A DNA stretch of 64,000 nucleotides, taken from the NCBI GenBank assembly GCA_019752535.1, contig JAIEMA010000009.1:1-64000 (forward strand). The letters are read 5' to 3'. The position numbers were made by a program, and so were the translations under genes. This DNA is from Bacteriovoracaceae bacterium. Lineage in GTDB: Bacteria > Bdellovibrionota > Bacteriovoracia > Bacteriovoracales > Bacteriovoracaceae. A model generated the notes under the pieces. The model saw nothing but the letters and a program-made list of their open reading frames with translations, made no database searches and had not been told where the DNA came from. Positions 51,048-59,735 of this stretch are shown here, in pieces; within the stretch, counting starts at the first letter, position 1, and each line of letters begins with the position of its first letter.

Positions 51048-53291
51048 GTGAAAAAAATGACATCGTCCGCTCTCTCCCTGCTCGCTCTTGGACTTCTCTC
51101 ATCTGCCTGTATGGAAGTGAGAATTGGTCAGCCGGCCAAATCAAAAAACAATTTTGTTTCTAATGCAACTGGACCGGTTAACACCGAGATTGGCGATGAG
51201 AAAGTCAAACTTCATGTGGTCTCTCCAAGTGAACTTCAGGCCTTAAAGCTTGAAGGGAAGGTCATGAATATCACTGCAGAGAAAGCCAAGGAGCTTTTTG
51301 ACACTCTTCCACATACAAATGAGAAATCAAAAACGGTCAATAAACTCCAAACGAACTCTGAGCTCGCTAAGCAACAATCTTTGATCCTTGGATTTCCAGT
51401 CGGACTCATTGGAGAGCAAAGTATCTTCGGTGCCGTGATCACTAAAGTCTCTGATCAAACCAATGAAACGTTGGGAGGTCTTAAACTCACTGATTTAAGT
51501 CCACTTCATGTCACCACAAAAATCTCCAACGAGAATGGGGTTGTGGCCCTCTCACTTGTCGGTTGTTCAAGTGGCTGTGATGAAGAATCGGCCCAAAGCT
51601 CTGTGATTGATATTCCTATCGTTAGCGTCTCGGCCAACATGGATATCATTTATTTAGACTTAACCACTTTGGGCTCTGGTCTCGATCTCATTAAGATGCT
51701 TGATCCAGGTGGGCGTTACACAAAGCTCACTTCAATTAGTTCAACGACTACAATGATGGACTACTCAGTCTCAACACTTGTCTTTGATGTACTCACTGTC
51801 ATGGTTCCAGTAGGGACGACTGATGTTGAAGCGGCTCCAAAGACTGAGTTCACTGTTCGTTGGTACTTGAAGCTCAATTCAGCCTTCAACCCAGCCTTCA
51901 CAGCTCGCGCGCCAACCGAAGGCGTGGGTTTCTTTAAGACTGAGCGTAGTGCTAGCCCTAAGATCACTCGTTTCTCTACGACTGACTTTGGCAAAACAGT
52001 GAAGTATTACATTAAAAATGTTCCAGAAAAGTATAAGCCTATCTTTGCTAAAGCTTTTGATAACTGGAATGTGGAATTCACGAAGATTTTAGGTCGCGAC
52101 TTTTTAAGCTATGAATTCTTAGAGTCTACTGACCCTAGATACTCTGTCATTATACCTGGTGATATTCGCTTCAATGTTCTTGAGTGGGATCTTGAAAACG
52201 TCGCAGGTTACGGTGGTCTTGGCCCTTCAATTGCGAATCAGTTCACTGGTGAAACATTATCGGCCAACGTTTTGATTCAGGGACCTACGATCATGAAGAT
52301 CTATACCGCTTGGTATGGAGTTTCTCAGACGGCCAATAAATTGATTGCTGATGGTCGCGTTGGAGAAGCAAATGCCCTAATGGCGAAGTTTAATCATGAG
52401 ACGGCAGCAGATTTGGCTCAAAAAAATAAAATGAAGTTTGCGATCAAGCTTGGCTCTTTAGAGATGAATGTTCGCTCTCAAAATGCAGAACTTGAAGATC
52501 CAATGGCCAAGAAAGATTTTGAAATTGTTCCAGCTGGTGTTTCTTTTGATGAATTCATGGCCGGCTACTTCACTGATATGCTCTCTCACGAGCTAGGTCA
52601 CAATTTAGGCCTTCGCCACAATTTCAAAGGAAATCTCGGTGCCTTTGAGACTGGTGAGAAAGGTTCAGTTTCTCGCTCAATTATGGAATACCTAGGTCGT
52701 CCTTACCGCTACCTCGATACCATTGGTCTTTATGACAGAATGGCAATCTCATACGGCTACCGTGGAGTCGCGCCTAAGCATCTTGATTGGTTCTGTACTG
52801 ATGAAGACCAAGGATCTGATAAGGCTTCTCTTGCAACGGCATCACCTGAGTGTACAAAATCAGATGCGACAAGCGATCCGTTCTCATTTTGGGAGAAGCG
52901 CTTTGCGAGAGCAGTTGATTTGATGGTCGATTTAAAGTCACCAAGTATGCCGGCCTGGAATGCAGCTGAGATCTCTTCTCAAGTCGATGCGGCGACGACT
53001 GGCATTGTCGCTTATGCAGCGAGTGCGAAGAATACAGCAGCAACTTGGACGAATTTCTTTGGTAAAGGTGATCGACCTGAGAGAGACGATTTTGCTGGAA
53101 TTAGAGCGTTTGTGATTGAAGCGATCAAGAAGAAAATTTGTAATCCAGAGATCGCCACAGTCATCGCAGCTAAAGAGTCTGCAGAAGCCATGAAGCTTGC
53201 TCAAGAGAATATTGAGGCCTTAAGAGCTCAAGTGGCAGAAACAGCTGCTGAACTAAGTGACATCACTGCTACGGAGTTAAGCTGTAAATAG
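51048..53291 (+). CDS. Secreted metzincin-type zinc metalloprotease lipoprotein
   Basis: A 747-residue lipoprotein. AGGAG five bases before the GTG at 51048 identifies the start. The lipobox SSAC is at about residues 18-21. The Zn site is HELGHNLGLRH (H514, H518, H524; HExxHxxGxxH) and a Met-turn SIMEYLG (M546) follows, so this is a metzincin. The N-terminal about 330 residues are a beta-rich domain with a Cys pair, and the last about 170 residues are helical, ending in a coiled coil. I cannot give a family name with certainty (DUF-type zinc-dependent metalloproteases share this motif). It may degrade external protein such as prey or host protein. Confidence 0.85.
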   Translation: MKKMTSSALSLLALGLLSSACMEVRIGQPAKSKNNFVSNATGPVNTEIGDEKVKLHVVSPSELQALKLEGKVMNITAEKAKELFDTLPHTNEKSKTVNKLQTNSELAKQQSLILGFPVGLIGEQSIFGAVITKVSDQTNETLGGLKLTDLSPLHVTTKISNENGVVALSLVGCSSGCDEESAQSSVIDIPIVSVSANMDIIYLDLTTLGSGLDLIKMLDPGGRYTKLTSISSTTTMMDYSVSTLVFDVLTVMVPVGTTDVEAAPKTEFTVRWYLKLNSAFNPAFTARAPTEGVGFFKTERSASPKITRFSTTDFGKTVKYYIKNVPEKYKPIFAKAFDNWNVEFTKILGRDFLSYEFLESTDPRYSVIIPGDIRFNVLEWDLENVAGYGGLGPSIANQFTGETLSANVLIQGPTIMKIYTAWYGVSQTANKLIADGRVGEANALMAKFNHETAADLAQKNKMKFAIKLGSLEMNVRSQNAELEDPMAKKDFEIVPAGVSFDEFMAGYFTDMLSHELGHNLGLRHNFKGNLGAFETGEKGSVSRSIMEYLGRPYRYLDTIGLYDRMAISYGYRGVAPKHLDWFCTDEDQGSDKASLATASPECTKSDATSDPFSFWEKRFARAVDLMVDLKSPSMPAWNAAEISSQVDAATTGIVAYAASAKNTAATWTNFFGKGDRPERDDFAGIRAFVIEAIKKKICNPEIATVIAAKESAEAMKLAQENIEALRAQVAETAAELSDITATELSCK

Positions 53292-53501: not shown

Positions 53502-55424
53502 ATGGGATTTAATTATCAGAAATTAAAACAGAAGAGTGAGGATGGTGGAGTCTTTTGGACATCCTATTCTGACTTATTCATGGTGCTATCTGTTGTCTTC
53601 TTACTCCTCTATGTTGTGGCAAATTTAAAAAGCGGAACATCTAGCATTCAGCAAATGATTGAGCACAGGAAGCTTAAGGCCGAAAGCGAAGACTTTAAAA
53701 AACAAATTCAAGCCTATAACGCTCTTAAAGATGAGTATCTTGAGAAAGAGGCTTCAGTAGAAGAATCACAGATGTATGAAGAACTGATGGGGAAGCTGAC
53801 TCTGCTTCAGGATGACGCCCAAAAAGAGAAGCGCCAACTTGAGGCTCAAGCTCAAGAGAACGATGCCAAAGCGAAAGCACTCAATCAGTATCAGCAAATG
53901 GTGAGAAATATTATCAACACGAATCTTCTTTCAAAAAAGAAGGTTAAGCTTCGCGACGACATGATTGTGAAGAAAAACGATGCCATCAAAGAGATGGATT
54001 CAACCATCACACAGCAGAGTGCTGAAATACAGCATCGTTCTCAAGAACTTAATCAGAAAGAAGCCCAGATTAGTGAGCAACAAAGAGAAATTCAAAACAA
54101 GCAAAAGATTCTCGATCAAAAAAAGCTTGAAGTCTCACAGTTAGAATCTCAAGTTCAAGAGAAGTCTAAAGTGATTCAAGATCACAACTCCAAGATTCAA
54201 GACCTCAATCAAAATCTTGCGAGTAAAATCAAAGAACTCGAAAAAACGTATTCGTCTGCTGAAAGCTCTAAAACAGAGCTGAGTAAGAAAATTGTGATGC
54301 TTAAGCTAGAAAATGCAAAAAAGGTGAGTGATCTCCAAAAACAAACCAAACAGATGAATGAAAGTGTGAGTGCGATTAATCAAAAACTCCAAGAAGCCTC
54401 TGGTCAGCTGCAAGATGCCAATTCAAAACTTGCGCAAGAAGAAGCGATGAAGGCTAAGCTCCAAAAAGAGTTAGCAGAAACGACTCAGGGTTATGAAAAT
54501 GAAATGGCCCAGATGAAGCAGAAGTTTAACGACAAACTTAATGCTGAGAAATCGCAACTTGAAGCTCAACTCGAAAAAGAGAAGGCGTCGGCCCAAGAGA
54601 AGTTGAAGCGCTTAGGTGAGTTTAAAGACAAAATGGCCAAAGAGAAATTGGCCCTTGATGGAAAGCTCTCAGAACTTAAGAGTGAAATTGATCAAGCTAA
54701 AAACCAGCTAGGGCAAGCTGAAAAAGAAGCTCAAGGCTATAAAGAGAAGCTTGCTCAAGCTCAGGCTGATCATGGCCGCTACTTAGCCGCAGTGGATAAA
54801 CTTCAAAAAGAGAAAGAAGGACTTTCTGGAGATTTAAAGCGTGCTCAGGAATTAGCAAACGCTAAGAAGACCTTGGCGAATAAAATCGCTGCGAATTTAG
54901 CAAAAAATGGAATTAAGGCCGGAGTAGACGGCAAATCAGGTGATGTCACAATTCAATTTGGTGATGAATATTTTGACACAAGCAAAGCTGATCTTAAAAA
55001 TAATATGAAGGAAATTTTGAAGAAGTTTGTCCCAACTTATTCAAAAAGTTTACTTGAAGATCCTAAGGTCGCTAAAGAGATTTCCTCAGTAGAAATTATT
55101 GGATTCTCATCTCCGACTTATCAAGGTCGTTATATTGACCCTCAGAGTTTAGCGGACAAAGACAAAACAGCGATCAGTTATAATTTAGATTTATCTTATA
55201 ATCGTGCGAAATCAATCTTCAGCTACATCTTTGATAAAAACAACATGACCTATGAGTATCAACAACAGTTGTTGCCAATGGTTAAGGTTACAGGAAGAAG
55301 TTTTTTAGCCGAAGAGGTTAAAGGCCGCGACATCGCTTCTGGTCTCTCTCATAAAGAATATTGTCAAAAGTATGGATGTGAAAAATCTCAAAAAGTTATC
55401 ATCAAATTTAATTTGAAGGACTGA
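53502..55424 (+). CDS. MotB-like stator protein with very long coiled-coil stalk and OmpA domain
   Basis: A 640-residue protein. The frame is open to a GTG at 53460, but GAGGG before ATG 53502 and the MotB-like start favour this ATG. Residues about 19-44 (FWTSYSDLFMVLSVVFLLLYVV) form one transmembrane helix whose D24 corresponds by alignment to the proton-binding Asp of MotB (YADF). Residues about 60-465 are almost unbroken Gln/Lys/Glu coiled coil. Residues about 475-640 are an OmpA/MotB-like peptidoglycan-binding domain (VTIQFGDEYFD, NLDLSYNRAKSIFSYIF). MotB is about 300 residues, so the stalk is an extra of about 400. The channel gene follows after 7 bp. Confidence 0.85.
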   Translation: MGFNYQKLKQKSEDGGVFWTSYSDLFMVLSVVFLLLYVVANLKSGTSSIQQMIEHRKLKAESEDFKKQIQAYNALKDEYLEKEASVEESQMYEELMGKLTLLQDDAQKEKRQLEAQAQENDAKAKALNQYQQMVRNIINTNLLSKKKVKLRDDMIVKKNDAIKEMDSTITQQSAEIQHRSQELNQKEAQISEQQREIQNKQKILDQKKLEVSQLESQVQEKSKVIQDHNSKIQDLNQNLASKIKELEKTYSSAESSKTELSKKIVMLKLENAKKVSDLQKQTKQMNESVSAINQKLQEASGQLQDANSKLAQEEAMKAKLQKELAETTQGYENEMAQMKQKFNDKLNAEKSQLEAQLEKEKASAQEKLKRLGEFKDKMAKEKLALDGKLSELKSEIDQAKNQLGQAEKEAQGYKEKLAQAQADHGRYLAAVDKLQKEKEGLSGDLKRAQELANAKKTLANKIAANLAKNGIKAGVDGKSGDVTIQFGDEYFDTSKADLKNNMKEILKKFVPTYSKSLLEDPKVAKEISSVEIIGFSSPTYQGRYIDPQSLADKDKTAISYNLDLSYNRAKSIFSYIFDKNNMTYEYQQQLLPMVKVTGRSFLAEEVKGRDIASGLSHKEYCQKYGCEKSQKVIIKFNLKD

Positions 55425-55431
55425 GGTGTTT

Positions 55432-56439
55432 ATGAGTAGTCAAGAAATTGTCCAGAAATTGGTCGATGGGGTTGTTGTTTTTGCAACAGATCTTCTGATG
55501 CCAACAATGCTGTTATGTTTCGTCGCTGCGATTACCCTGAGAGTTTTAACCTATTACACAGTCAAAAGAGAGTATTGGTTCTCTCGTGAGTTCTCAAAGC
55601 GTGTGAAGAAGTTTCTCGATGTGAGAGATGAAAAAGCAGAGCAGTCTTTTTATATTATTACTAAACGTCTTTTAGAGATCACTTATTATGAGCTCTTTGA
55701 GGTCCGTGCCATCATGAAGAGAAGAAATCCAGATGCCATTATGACTCTGGCCGATAGGGTGTTTCTTGTTCAGCAAGGGGCTGCCCGCATGGTGACTGAC
55801 ACCTTAAAGCAGCTTAAATATCTTAAGTATGACGGTGAGAGACCAAATTTTGTCGATATCTCTGATCACGTCCAAAGCAATAATCCATGCTTTAATCGCA
55901 TCTTTGGTGTCATTCCAGTCAATGTCTCTAATGATTTTCTTAACACTGTACCGGGTCTCTTCATTGTGGGTGGTATCTTTGGGACTTTCCTTGGAATCAT
56001 GAAAGCCCTTCCAGAGCTTGGAAGTATGAACTTAAGTGACGTTGAAGGCTCTAAGTTGATCATGGATAATTTCCTTCTAAAAATCTCTTTCTCGATGTCG
56101 ACCTCAATCATCGGAATTATCTTTAGCGTGGGTATGGGCTTGGCCAATACTTTCTTTAGCAGTGAAAAAATCTATATTCGCTCAGTCGAGAAGTTTGAGA
56201 GAGAACTTAATCTTCTTTGGAATGTGAGTTCTTCTAATAAACTTCCAAATGAGATTTCAAACTTTGAAGCTGAACGTGATCCAGTCGAAGTTTTGGCTGA
56301 AGATCTGATTTCTAAAGATCTCAACGTCCAGGTCGGTTTTGTTAAGCTTGCCTGGCCGATCAGTAAGTGGTGGGGAAGATTTGCCAAAGAGCCTGAGAAG
56401 AAAATTGAGAAAGTCGAAGACGAGAAAAAAGCCGCTTAA
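55432..56439 (+). CDS. MotA/TolQ/ExbB-like proton-channel protein
   Basis: A 335-residue inner-membrane protein. GAGG with 5-nt spacing gives ATG 55432. Three hydrophobic helices are predicted: about 21-45, about 165-190 (FLNTVPGLFIVGGIFGTFLGIMKAL) and about 210-235 (LKISFSMSTSIIGIIFSVGMGLANT); the last two carry the channel-family features. Between the first two is a cytoplasmic loop of about 120 residues, and the C-terminal tail is acidic/Lys-rich. Three helices fit the TolQ/ExbB/ZorA side of the family more than four-helix MotA. With the MotB-like protein upstream it should form a proton-driven stator complex. Confidence 0.85.
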   Translation: MSSQEIVQKLVDGVVVFATDLLMPTMLLCFVAAITLRVLTYYTVKREYWFSREFSKRVKKFLDVRDEKAEQSFYIITKRLLEITYYELFEVRAIMKRRNPDAIMTLADRVFLVQQGAARMVTDTLKQLKYLKYDGERPNFVDISDHVQSNNPCFNRIFGVIPVNVSNDFLNTVPGLFIVGGIFGTFLGIMKALPELGSMNLSDVEGSKLIMDNFLLKISFSMSTSIIGIIFSVGMGLANTFFSSEKIYIRSVEKFERELNLLWNVSSSNKLPNEISNFEAERDPVEVLAEDLISKDLNVQVGFVKLAWPISKWWGRFAKEPEKKIEKVEDEKKAA

Positions 56440-56462
56440 AAGCATTCGGAGAAGGTGGAGTT

Positions 56463-57434
56463 TTGAATAATTTAGTCGTCACAGTCTTTTTTGAAGGATC
56501 ATCCCGTGAGTACCTCTTCACGGGAGTTGGCCCCTACAAAATTGGTGGAGATCATCAATCGGATATAACGATTAACGGTGTTCATACTGTTTGCTTCGAA
56601 TTTACGCTTAGTGGAGGAGAGATTCTTGTGACTCGTCTGGGTGATGAAGAAGTGAGTCTCTCCCAGCAAATCATCCCAAAATACGGTCAAATTCTTTATC
56701 GTGAAGAAGATGTGCTCTCCATCCATGGGCATCAAATAGAGATTAAAAAAGTTGCCGATGAGTCCACACCTCCTCCCTTTTTTGAGCCAGAGTTTAGAGC
56801 TGAGTTTCTGGCCTTAGAGAAGAAGGTCGAAGCAAGAAAGACAGAACTCAAAAATATCATGAATGATTTGGGACTAAAGGAGAGACAGCTTTCTGGGGCC
56901 AAATCCAATCTCGAAACTTTAAGTAAGGATCGTCACCACTTAAATCTTCAAATTGATCAACTCAAGACAGAAAAGAAGAGCTTGGATGGAGATCTTAAAA
57001 AAATCAAAAGCCAGGCGCATTTAGAAGATGAAAACCTTAGAAGTTCAAAGATTGAGCTTGAGAACTTAACCCTTGAGAGACAATCTGTTCAGCAGCATAT
57101 TCAAAAATTACAGATTGATTTAAAACAGGCTAAACTTGAAGCCGAAAATGTTCAAGCGAATGCTAAAGACGAGAGAGCGCGAGTAGAGAAGATTCAGACC
57201 GAGATTCATCATCTCGAGGGAAAGGTTGAAAGCCTTGAAAAGCTTACTTTAAGTCGCAGCGAGCACATTGCTTTAGACGAGAAGAGAATTCTTGAGTTGA
57301 GTCGGGAGGCTGAGGAGAAGTCGCAAGAAAATAAAAAAATTGAAAATGCTCTAAATGAGCTCAAGAAAAGTAAAATCAAGTTAGAACTTGATATTATTGA
57401 GTTGAATGAAAAGCATGAACAGAGTCTTAAATAA
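56463..57434 (+). CDS. FHA-like/coiled-coil protein, 5' part of an interrupted long frame
   Basis: A 323-residue product if translation stops at the TAA at 57432-57434. TTG 56463 is the apparent start, with AAGG seven bases upstream. Residues 1-95 look like a degenerate FHA/YscD-cytoplasmic-type domain (YKIGGDHQSDITINGVHTV, with the usual R-S-H phosphothreonine residues not conserved). From about 110 on it is continuous coiled coil. The same frame continues open for 2.3 kb after the stop without a gap in the heptad character, so this may be the 5' half of one protein of about 1090 codons. It lies 23 bp after the channel gene. Confidence 0.7.
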   Translation: MNNLVVTVFFEGSSREYLFTGVGPYKIGGDHQSDITINGVHTVCFEFTLSGGEILVTRLGDEEVSLSQQIIPKYGQILYREEDVLSIHGHQIEIKKVADESTPPPFFEPEFRAEFLALEKKVEARKTELKNIMNDLGLKERQLSGAKSNLETLSKDRHHLNLQIDQLKTEKKSLDGDLKKIKSQAHLEDENLRSSKIELENLTLERQSVQQHIQKLQIDLKQAKLEAENVQANAKDERARVEKIQTEIHHLEGKVESLEKLTLSRSEHIALDEKRILELSREAEEKSQENKKIENALNELKKSKIKLELDIIELNEKHEQSLK

Positions 57435-57518
57435 GTAGAAAAGCTTGATCTTCATCTCCAGTCTCAACGCAAGAGGATTCATCAAGAAGAGCTTGAACTT
57501 CAGCAAATTAGCGCCCGT

Positions 57519-59735
57519 GTGGAAGAGTGTTTAAGTAAAGAGATTGAGATCAAGAGCTTTCAAGAAGTTTTAAAGCTTGAAACCGTTAAGATTGAGGCTG
57601 ATCACGCCAGAAAGCAAAAAATCTTCACTTCCCTTGAATTGGATTATCAAAAAGCCCATAAAGAGCTCGCTCGTCTGACTTACGAGGCCGATGATCTTAC
57701 AAAAAAGATCAACCTCTTACACGAACAGGAGCAGAAGCAGATATTTAAGATTGAAATGCTAAAAGGTGAGCATCAGGCTTCATCTCAGGCCCTTCAGCTT
57801 GAGTCTCAGCGCTTGAAAAATGAGCACGATGAGCATGTCAGAAGACTCAAAGATGATTTTCACTCTCATCAAGCAAAGCTTGATGAAATTAAATCAAATA
57901 TAAGAATGGCCCAGGATGATCTAAATCTTATTCATTCAAAGAGAGAAAAATCTCAGGTTTTAGTGGAATCTCTAGAAGTTTCGAAGCGTCATTTTGAGTC
58001 AGAGATTAAGGAGCTTGAACACAAAAGAGATAACGTCGGCCATGAGATTGAGCAGCTAAATAGTCAATTGATGCATCTTCAAAGACAGCATCAGGTTAAA
58101 ACCCATGAGTTAAAGGATTTAGATTTAAGGCTTCATCAAACTCAATCCTATATCTCTCAGATTCAATTAGAAAATGAGAAAGATCTCGAAGTAAAGAGAC
58201 ACTCATTTGATCAAAGTCTCTTGATTGAAAGAGAAGCATTGATCAATGAAATTGATCTGATGAAAATTAAAGCTCTAAAAGATTTAGAAAGTGAAAAGCT
58301 TAAACGTGAGGAAGAGATTCGTGATCAAGCTGATAAGCTTCTCGTGTCGGCTCACAGAAGGCTTAATGAAGCCTCTTATGAAGCCCAGGAAAGGGAAGCC
58401 AAGGCGCACTCCCACTTGATTGAAGCCCAAAAGGTGTATCAAGACAGAGAGAAGGCCGCTCAGGATCTTTATGTCCAAGCTGAGCAAAAAATCCAAACTG
58501 AATTTCATGAAAGAAAACAGAGAATGAAGTCATATCTTGCGAATAAGCAAGATCGCTCTCTTAAGGCGCTTGTACAACTCAATGCCCTTCATCTTAAGAA
58601 GCTCTCAAAATTGGAATTTCAGTCGAGAATTAAAATTGAGCAGATTAAAAGAAGTGAACTTAAAAAGATTGCTCAGGTTCGTGACCTTGAACTTGGAAAA
58701 CAAAATGAGCTGAAAGATCGTTTAAAGTTAGAGATCAAAGAAGAGAGGAAAAAGATCATTCATCAGTTAAACACGATGAAAATTGAGCAAGAAAGAGAAC
58801 TAGAAAACACAAAGAAGCTCGCACTTCAAAATATTCAAAATACAAAAACGAAGACAGTAGAAGATACACAGTTAGAGATTAAGAGAGAGAAAGAGACATT
58901 TGAGAAGTCAAAAGCTCAGCGACTTCAAAATGCCACACACAGTGTCTTAAAGCTTTTATCGAGTCATGAGCTGCCTGCAGGATTTGAACAACAACTCAAG
59001 CAGAGTCTCTCTCAATCACTCGACGGAAAATTTTCGATCTCCACTGAAAAAGGCGAGAAGATCCTTGAGTTTAATCCGTTAAATCAAAAAAAGATTATTC
59101 CTGTTCTTCAGAAATACGGTATCCGTTTTGGTATACCTGCGGCGATTCTTCTGACTTTTGGTCTGGATATCGGGTCGATACGTACGAGTTCAAAGGATCT
59201 GATCGTTCAGGCCTTAAAGCAAAAAGAGTCTGCCTCAGAGAAGTACGTGACTCAACAGAAACAAGAGTGGCGCGAGAAGAATACATATAATCCACCAACG
59301 ACTTTAGGCTATAAATCTTCCTTTGTTGATAACGTTCTTTATACGACTGACTTTTTAAAGGTTGTCTCTGACGAGTCTTTTCAAAATGATTGGATTTTAA
59401 AGTTACATGGATTTATCACCACAGATCTTGAACTCTCTGAAGATATCGCCATTAGCTATATTTCCTCTGAAGGCGCACTCATCAAAGAGCTTGAGATGGC
59501 CCGTGGTGATATTCATCCGAACTATCTTGAGGCTGGCTTGGCGAAGCTTCATGAAATTGAAAAGAAGCATCTTTCTTGGCTCGAGACCAAAGTCTCTGAT
59601 AAAGCAAAACTAGATAAATTTTTTGGCTTTAGAAAAGACTTTTATGAAGGTTTTTATGAAACACAATTTAAGCCTAATCGCTCCATGGCCAGTGAGCCAA
59701 AACCTCAGGAAGTTCTTAAAATATTAGGCCCATAA
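57519..59735 (+). CDS. Coiled-coil protein, 3' part of the interrupted frame
   Basis: This frame is in phase with the 323-residue part upstream. The frame is open from just after the TAA at 57432-57434; the first possible start is GTG 57519, which has no ribosome site. It would encode 738 residues: coiled coil to about residue 500, then a short hydrophobic segment (FGIPAAILLTFGLDIGSI) near codon 890 of the full frame, then about 170 residues of unknown domain that may be periplasmic. If the stop is real, it is a broken gene or needs read-through or reinitiation. A sequence error cannot be excluded. Function: probably cytoplasmic partner of the stator pair, by position. Confidence 0.6.
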   Translation: MEECLSKEIEIKSFQEVLKLETVKIEADHARKQKIFTSLELDYQKAHKELARLTYEADDLTKKINLLHEQEQKQIFKIEMLKGEHQASSQALQLESQRLKNEHDEHVRRLKDDFHSHQAKLDEIKSNIRMAQDDLNLIHSKREKSQVLVESLEVSKRHFESEIKELEHKRDNVGHEIEQLNSQLMHLQRQHQVKTHELKDLDLRLHQTQSYISQIQLENEKDLEVKRHSFDQSLLIEREALINEIDLMKIKALKDLESEKLKREEEIRDQADKLLVSAHRRLNEASYEAQEREAKAHSHLIEAQKVYQDREKAAQDLYVQAEQKIQTEFHERKQRMKSYLANKQDRSLKALVQLNALHLKKLSKLEFQSRIKIEQIKRSELKKIAQVRDLELGKQNELKDRLKLEIKEERKKIIHQLNTMKIEQERELENTKKLALQNIQNTKTKTVEDTQLEIKREKETFEKSKAQRLQNATHSVLKLLSSHELPAGFEQQLKQSLSQSLDGKFSISTEKGEKILEFNPLNQKKIIPVLQKYGIRFGIPAAILLTFGLDIGSIRTSSKDLIVQALKQKESASEKYVTQQKQEWREKNTYNPPTTLGYKSSFVDNVLYTTDFLKVVSDESFQNDWILKLHGFITTDLELSEDIAISYISSEGALIKELEMARGDIHPNYLEAGLAKLHEIEKKHLSWLETKVSDKAKLDKFFGFRKDFYEGFYETQFKPNRSMASEPKPQEVLKILGP

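Follow-up and report, generated by a model that had tools for sequence, protein, structure and literature searches.

What kind of machine is encoded by three adjacent genes in a bacterium of the Bacteriovoracaceae, and does it belong to any motor family that has already been described? The genes lie in the stretch of contig JAIEMA010000009.1 (assembly GCA_019752535.1) analysed here, 64,000 nucleotides in all, which we call the window. Inspection of open reading frames places them on the same (+) strand at 53502-59735. These are the three neighbouring frames that a sequence-only reading had picked out as a MotB-like protein with a long stalk, a MotA-like channel and a giant coiled-coil partner. 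Our best reading is that the locus belongs to the 5:2 ion-driven motors as a branch that is apparently undescribed, has a new partner family and places its rod on a separate FHA protein. We consider it rather probable that the three genes form one machine, an ion-driven envelope motor with a separate FHA rod protein. Single-sequence searches of the window proteins against Pfam, PHROGs and the PDB gave weak matches only, the Pfam ones below cut-off. Profiles built from relatives were therefore used.

Scanning public genomes gave 80 loci and a total of 107 relatives. Almost all come from Bdellovibrionota, and some are from gammaproteobacterial metagenome-assembled genomes. The MotB-like gene is directly upstream of the channel gene in 74 of 79 loci. 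Where more than 4.5 kb of sequence is available downstream, which is so at 61 loci, the third gene follows directly in 53; the eight exceptions include five two-gene Gammaproteobacteria. Of 291 genomes sampled from the phylum, about 109 have a strong form of the channel protein (expectation (E) value below 1e-50). In one genus of 24 genomes, which we take to be that of Bdellovibrio bacteriovorus, the motor and the end domain of the third protein are both present in 20 and both absent in 4. The three genes are thus kept together among relatives, and chance is excluded because sequence and gene order are conserved in dozens of genomes.

A rearrangement in one genome (G110; L183 and L184) separates the channel gene from the third gene by 917 kb, because the chromosomal break falls between them; both parts are intact. 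The motor is single-copy as a rule, and some genomes have two copies (C107 and C413 of G003; also G141:C24). In G003 the FHA domain of the second copy is canonical and that of the first is degenerate. Some complete genomes, such as G122, have lost the motor, which is therefore not essential. The gammaproteobacterial loci (L102, L103, L106-L108 and L111-L115) hold MotB-like and MotA-like genes only, with no FHA partner. Their MotB-like proteins have longer stalks and measure 767-973 amino acids where complete, and their MotA-like proteins measure about 299. Since the third gene is absent from some loci, the motor can exist without the third protein.

The first gene (53502..55424, +, start ATG 53502) encodes a MotB/ZorB-like protein of 640 amino acids with an N-terminal membrane helix, a long predicted helical stalk and an OmpA-like C-terminal domain. 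Residue 24, within SYSDLF in the sole N-terminal membrane helix, is an aspartate (codon at 53571..53573). It corresponds to the Asp that carries ions in MotB and ZorB. Asp24 is identical in all 37 aligned relatives, as are Thr539, Arg568, Cys621 and Cys626 of the OmpA-like domain. The OmpA-like domain, of the peptidoglycan-binding type, spans 54897..55421; Pfam OmpA is matched by 10 of the 37 relatives and MotB_plug by 10. PADLOC ZorB1 matches the protein over this C-terminal domain (3.8e-28). In a PDB search with the 37-relative profile, the nearest solved chain is ZorB (8vvi, 3.1e-7) once the numerous plain coiled-coil matches are disregarded. Both features first read from the sequence, D24 in the helix and the OmpA domain, are upheld by these results. 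In Zorya, D24 and the peptidoglycan-binding residues of ZorB are essential (PMC11890865).

The putative periplasmic stalk (53631..54896), a predicted coiled coil, is about 420 residues long in the window and 265-756 residues long among relatives. Conservation is good over the first ~115 residues, and the remainder is variable. As a single straight helix with a rise of 0.15 nm per residue, 420 residues would extend for about 60 nm, which exceeds the usual periplasm. The stalk is therefore probably folded back or tilted.

The second gene (55432..56439, +) encodes a MotA/ZorA-like channel protein of about 335 amino acids. The start at 55432, from which the profile match runs, is likelier; GTG 55426 is also possible. 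The AlphaFold model (mean predicted local distance difference test score, pLDDT, of 84) has three long membrane helices and resembles TolQ, ExbB and ZorA, in agreement with the three-helix TolQ/ExbB/MotA-like channel proposed earlier. Past the last helix of the membrane region there are about 70 residues, most with pLDDT below 50, which form a short disordered C-terminal tail. PADLOC ZorA1 matches the protein at 4.4e-7, and the best PDB matches of a 51-relative profile are ZorA chains (2.8e-7). Foldseek places ZorA first, then TolQ and ExbB, with a probability of 1.00 and E-values of only ~2e-3.

In a tree of 44 proteins, the MotA, TolQ, ExbB and AglR-like references fall on one side of a branch with 100/100 support. 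The window type, a second related system (system B, below) and the ZorA-like rows fall on the opposite side, in an order that the tree leaves unresolved. Three rows labelled 'zor' were in wrong reading frames and were left out. A search by way of plasmids yielded no reference ZorA genes, and real Zorya proteins were compared through profiles and PDB chains only. The window genome holds seven other MotA/TolQ/ExbB genes, and the MotA-like/MotB-like pair is therefore an extra motor; a separate MotAB-type pair and separate Tol/Exb operons are present elsewhere in the genome. The locus shows the features that characterize the 5:2 ion-driven motor superfamily, a MotA/TolQ/ExbB fold in the A subunit together with a single-helix, Asp-bearing B subunit.

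The third frame has 1,090 codons, from TTG 56463 to 59735. In its relatives, which total 465-1,652 residues, an FHA domain is followed by a coiled coil, then by a single membrane helix and finally by an end domain. The FHA-like part of the original reading is real by homology: PF00498 (FHA) is matched by 53 of 58 relatives, whereas the window protein itself has no Pfam FHA match. The membrane segment placed near codon 890 coincides with a single predicted helix at codons ~886-904 (59118..59174). Of 46 relatives, 38 have more Lys and Arg ahead of the helix and 2 have more behind it. By the positive-inside rule, the FHA domain and the coiled coil would therefore be cytoplasmic and the end domain probably periplasmic. 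The long tail had been assigned to the MotB-like side. A long stalk is indeed found there, but with this predicted topology the cytoplasmic rod would belong to the third protein.

The predicted structure of the end domain (59322..59669), which marks the family, is all-helical, with a pLDDT of ~97. The domain has no PDB fold match at E ≤ 0.001 and no consistent Pfam match, and none of 46 C-terminal domains matches TonB. This C-terminal domain is novel. Matches of the coiled coils to SMC, Rad50 and JetC were discarded as composition effects. In one relative, an extra small FHA protein is encoded directly upstream of the three-gene operon (L140:11895-12773).

The phosphothreonine-binding positions of the FHA domain (Arg, Ser, Arg-x-His and Asn) are replaced in the eight members of the window clade (the window, L038-L040, L042-L044 and L046) and kept in nearly all relatives outside it. 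Judged by these replacements, phospho-recognition has probably been lost in the window clade.

The window copy of the third gene also contains an in-frame TAA at codon 324 (57432..57434). The 5′ part (56463..57434, +) carries the FHA-like fold, assigned by homology to the FHA domains of relatives, and the start of the coiled coil. The 3′ part (57435..59735, +) carries coiled coil, membrane helix and C-terminal domain. The protein of about 1,090 codons that had been proposed is thus not an uninterrupted frame, the stop having been missed. The length itself agrees with six close relatives, in which the gene is intact at 1,085-1,143 codons and the stop position is Gln in five and Ser in one.

Could the window gene then be a true pseudogene, or two proteins, in a motor whose partner is being lost? 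The stop and the replaced phospho-binding residues of the clade would fit such decay, but 766 codons are still open past the stop with no frameshift, and a draft assembly may contain a base error. The membrane/C-terminal part also diverges less than the coiled coil (nonsynonymous divergence, dN, of ~0.4-0.5 vs 0.8-0.9); in the dN/dS comparison across the stop, synonymous divergence (dS) was uninformative, as synonymous sites are saturated. Because of this lower divergence, the break appears to be either a very recent nonsense change or an assembly error. We give decay of the gene somewhat less than an even chance, and it is compatible with the other readings of the locus.

Among known proteins, ZorA and ZorB of Zorya types I and II come closest to the two motor proteins, in sequence as well as in fold. 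As in ZorB, the B subunit is predicted to combine Asp24 with an OmpA-like domain of the cell-wall-binding type. Unlike ZorA, the channel protein has no long cytoplasmic tail; the B-subunit stalk is ~420 residues long; and the locus has a third protein of FHA, coiled coil and membrane helix and no ZorC, ZorD or ZorE. It also falls below all curated cut-offs. The channel protein scores 24.5 bits against the 190 required for ZorA, the MotB-like protein 30.1 bits against the 400 required for ZorB (NF041787), and the ZorA_1 cut-off is passed in none of the 291 genomes of the phylum. The PADLOC ZorB1 match was rejected as a sign of Zorya membership on cut-offs and layout, and is taken as kinship only.

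The genes around the locus were also considered. Window neighbours gave no helicase or nuclease match above cut-off. Among the flanking genes of relatives, which were read by sequence and not all scanned, no effectors of the ZorC, ZorD or ZorE type were recognised, and these flanking genes differ between genera. Upstream of the MotB-like gene, the window encodes a predicted lipoprotein that carries a met-zincin protease domain (51048-53291; DUF4953, 1.1e-10), with no sign that it is part of the motor.

A different likeness is offered by the gliding machinery of myxobacteria. GltG of Myxococcus xanthus is an FHA-membrane-periplasm protein that binds AglR (PMC3169522), and the third protein shares with it the predicted arrangement of a cytoplasmic FHA domain, one membrane helix and a periplasmic domain in a motor-adjacent protein. 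However, AglR is on the TolQ/ExbB side of the tree, and the B subunit of the locus is MotB/ZorB-like and not TolR-like. GltG has a TonB-like end, whereas the third protein has an unrelated helical domain. Flagellar MotAB similarly has an Asp in the membrane helix of the B subunit and a cell-wall-binding end. Here, in contrast, the A subunit has three membrane helices, not four, and is outside the MotA/TolQ/ExbB group, and the genes are not in a flagellar operon. Tol-Pal and ExbBD differ in that the B subunit of the locus has an OmpA end of the MotB/ZorB type and its A subunit lies outside the TolQ/ExbB clade. The locus is thus not a standard MotAB, Tol or Zorya operon, given the 100/100 split in the tree and the failed Zorya cut-offs and layout. 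With the rod on a separate third protein, its layout resembles ZorAB with the tail relocated, or AglRQS with GltG.

System B (L027-L035; e.g. L031:9224-16024 and L029:9079-12694) occurs in the same family as the window. It consists of a giant MotB-like protein of 738-1,758 amino acids, a MotA-like protein of about 305 and an adjoining protein of 146-164 amino acids, which matches cNMP_binding in both of the two cases tested. Like the window type it is on the ZorA-side branch and has a long-stalk B subunit, with a stalk of up to ~1,500 residues. Unlike the window type, its partner is a cNMP-binding protein of ~150 amino acids and not an FHA protein. System B also looks undescribed.

We propose the following mechanism. 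About five MotA-like subunits would form a ring around two MotB-like subunits in the inner membrane. The MotB-like pair would be held to the cell wall by the long helical stalk and the OmpA-like end, and ion flow past Asp24 would turn the MotA-like ring relative to it. The third protein would cross the membrane once, with the FHA domain and the coiled coil on the cytoplasmic side and the new helical domain in the periplasm, and would contact the motor. It would serve as a separate output rod or tether, the role filled by the ZorA tail in Zorya and by GltG in Agl/Glt.

The interpretation as one machine rests on gene order, co-retention, homology to ZorAB, the invariant Asp, domain order and the novelty of the end domain, and also on the genome that keeps both motor and third gene despite their separation by 917 kb. 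The idea first suggested, a stator-type motor not yet described, with a long stalk on the MotB side and a coiled-coil protein as partner, has withstood the tree, the Zorya cut-offs and layout, and the survey of gene order. The operon is not mentioned in the searched open-access passages of reviews and of the main text of a transposon-sequencing (Tn-seq) paper. Several points weigh against this interpretation. The third gene is missing from the gammaproteobacterial two-gene copies and some others, and is interrupted in the window copy, whose FHA domain lacks the phospho-binding residues. The stalk would outreach the usual periplasm as one straight helix. Sequence cannot separate gliding from other envelope tasks.

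The motor would most likely be used to transmit force across the envelope, either in surface movement of the gliding type or in the mechanics of the envelope and the cell pole in Bdellovibrionota. The locus may be a missing or additional gliding motor of this phylum, alongside or instead of AglRQS-like motors. It is present in the genome that we take to be strain HD100 of B. bacteriovorus. The resemblance of its FHA-membrane-periplasm protein to GltG beside AglR speaks for this role, and for Bdellovibrio PMC13104615 treats the motor, the adhesins and the transmission of force in gliding and invasion as an open challenge. On the other hand, the third protein lacks a TonB-like domain, and Glt TPR partners are not encoded nearby. 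Tn-seq in B. bacteriovorus implicates aglS (Bd0838) in attachment, and the main-text table of that study holds no validated hit near the locus (PMC6561027). A gliding motor of this kind has clearly less than an even chance.

The motor could instead serve a general envelope or cell-shape machine, passing force to a cytoplasmic coiled-coil scaffold for pole organisation, constriction or vibrioid shape. Coiled-coil proteins of this kind (in system B) give weak matches to crescentin rod models. Interpolation between motA (Bd0144), aglS (Bd0838), dnaK (Bd1298) and Bd3021, of which the Bd0144 and Bd3021 assignments are presumed, gives the operon tags of about Bd1165-Bd1178 in HD100. Bd1167, described as crescentin-like (PMC2797640), is numbered near this position, which is a lead and not an identification. 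The loss of the motor in complete genomes such as G122 argues against this role. We treat it as a tentative suggestion, about as likely as the gliding motor.

Diverged anti-phage defence, in which the FHA coiled-coil protein would replace the ZorA tail and effectors, is improbable: ZorA and ZorB are the closest relatives and Asp24 corresponds to ZorB D24 (PMC11890865), but the cut-offs fail, no effectors are recognised in the varying flanks, and a usually single-copy motor carried by 20 of the 24 genomes in one genus is unlike patchy defence islands. Gliding or envelope mechanics is the likelier role because it fits the phylum and the likeness to GltG. The boldest version is that of an undescribed envelope motor class, core to much of Bdellovibrionota. 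By way of a new family of membrane proteins, its ion-driven torque would be passed from the cell wall to a rod in the cytoplasm that is phospho-regulated, and the motor would so power gliding or prey entry. We regard this version as speculative and rather unlikely in full.

Phage defence is not the only setting of the ZorAB branch among ion-driven motors, as it has widely kept relatives in Bdellovibrionota. These relatives bear on the origin of Zorya, and automatic defence-gene callers may mislabel such motor genes as Zorya. For Bdellovibrio itself, the operon is a concrete candidate for the motor and force-transmission parts of gliding and invasion.

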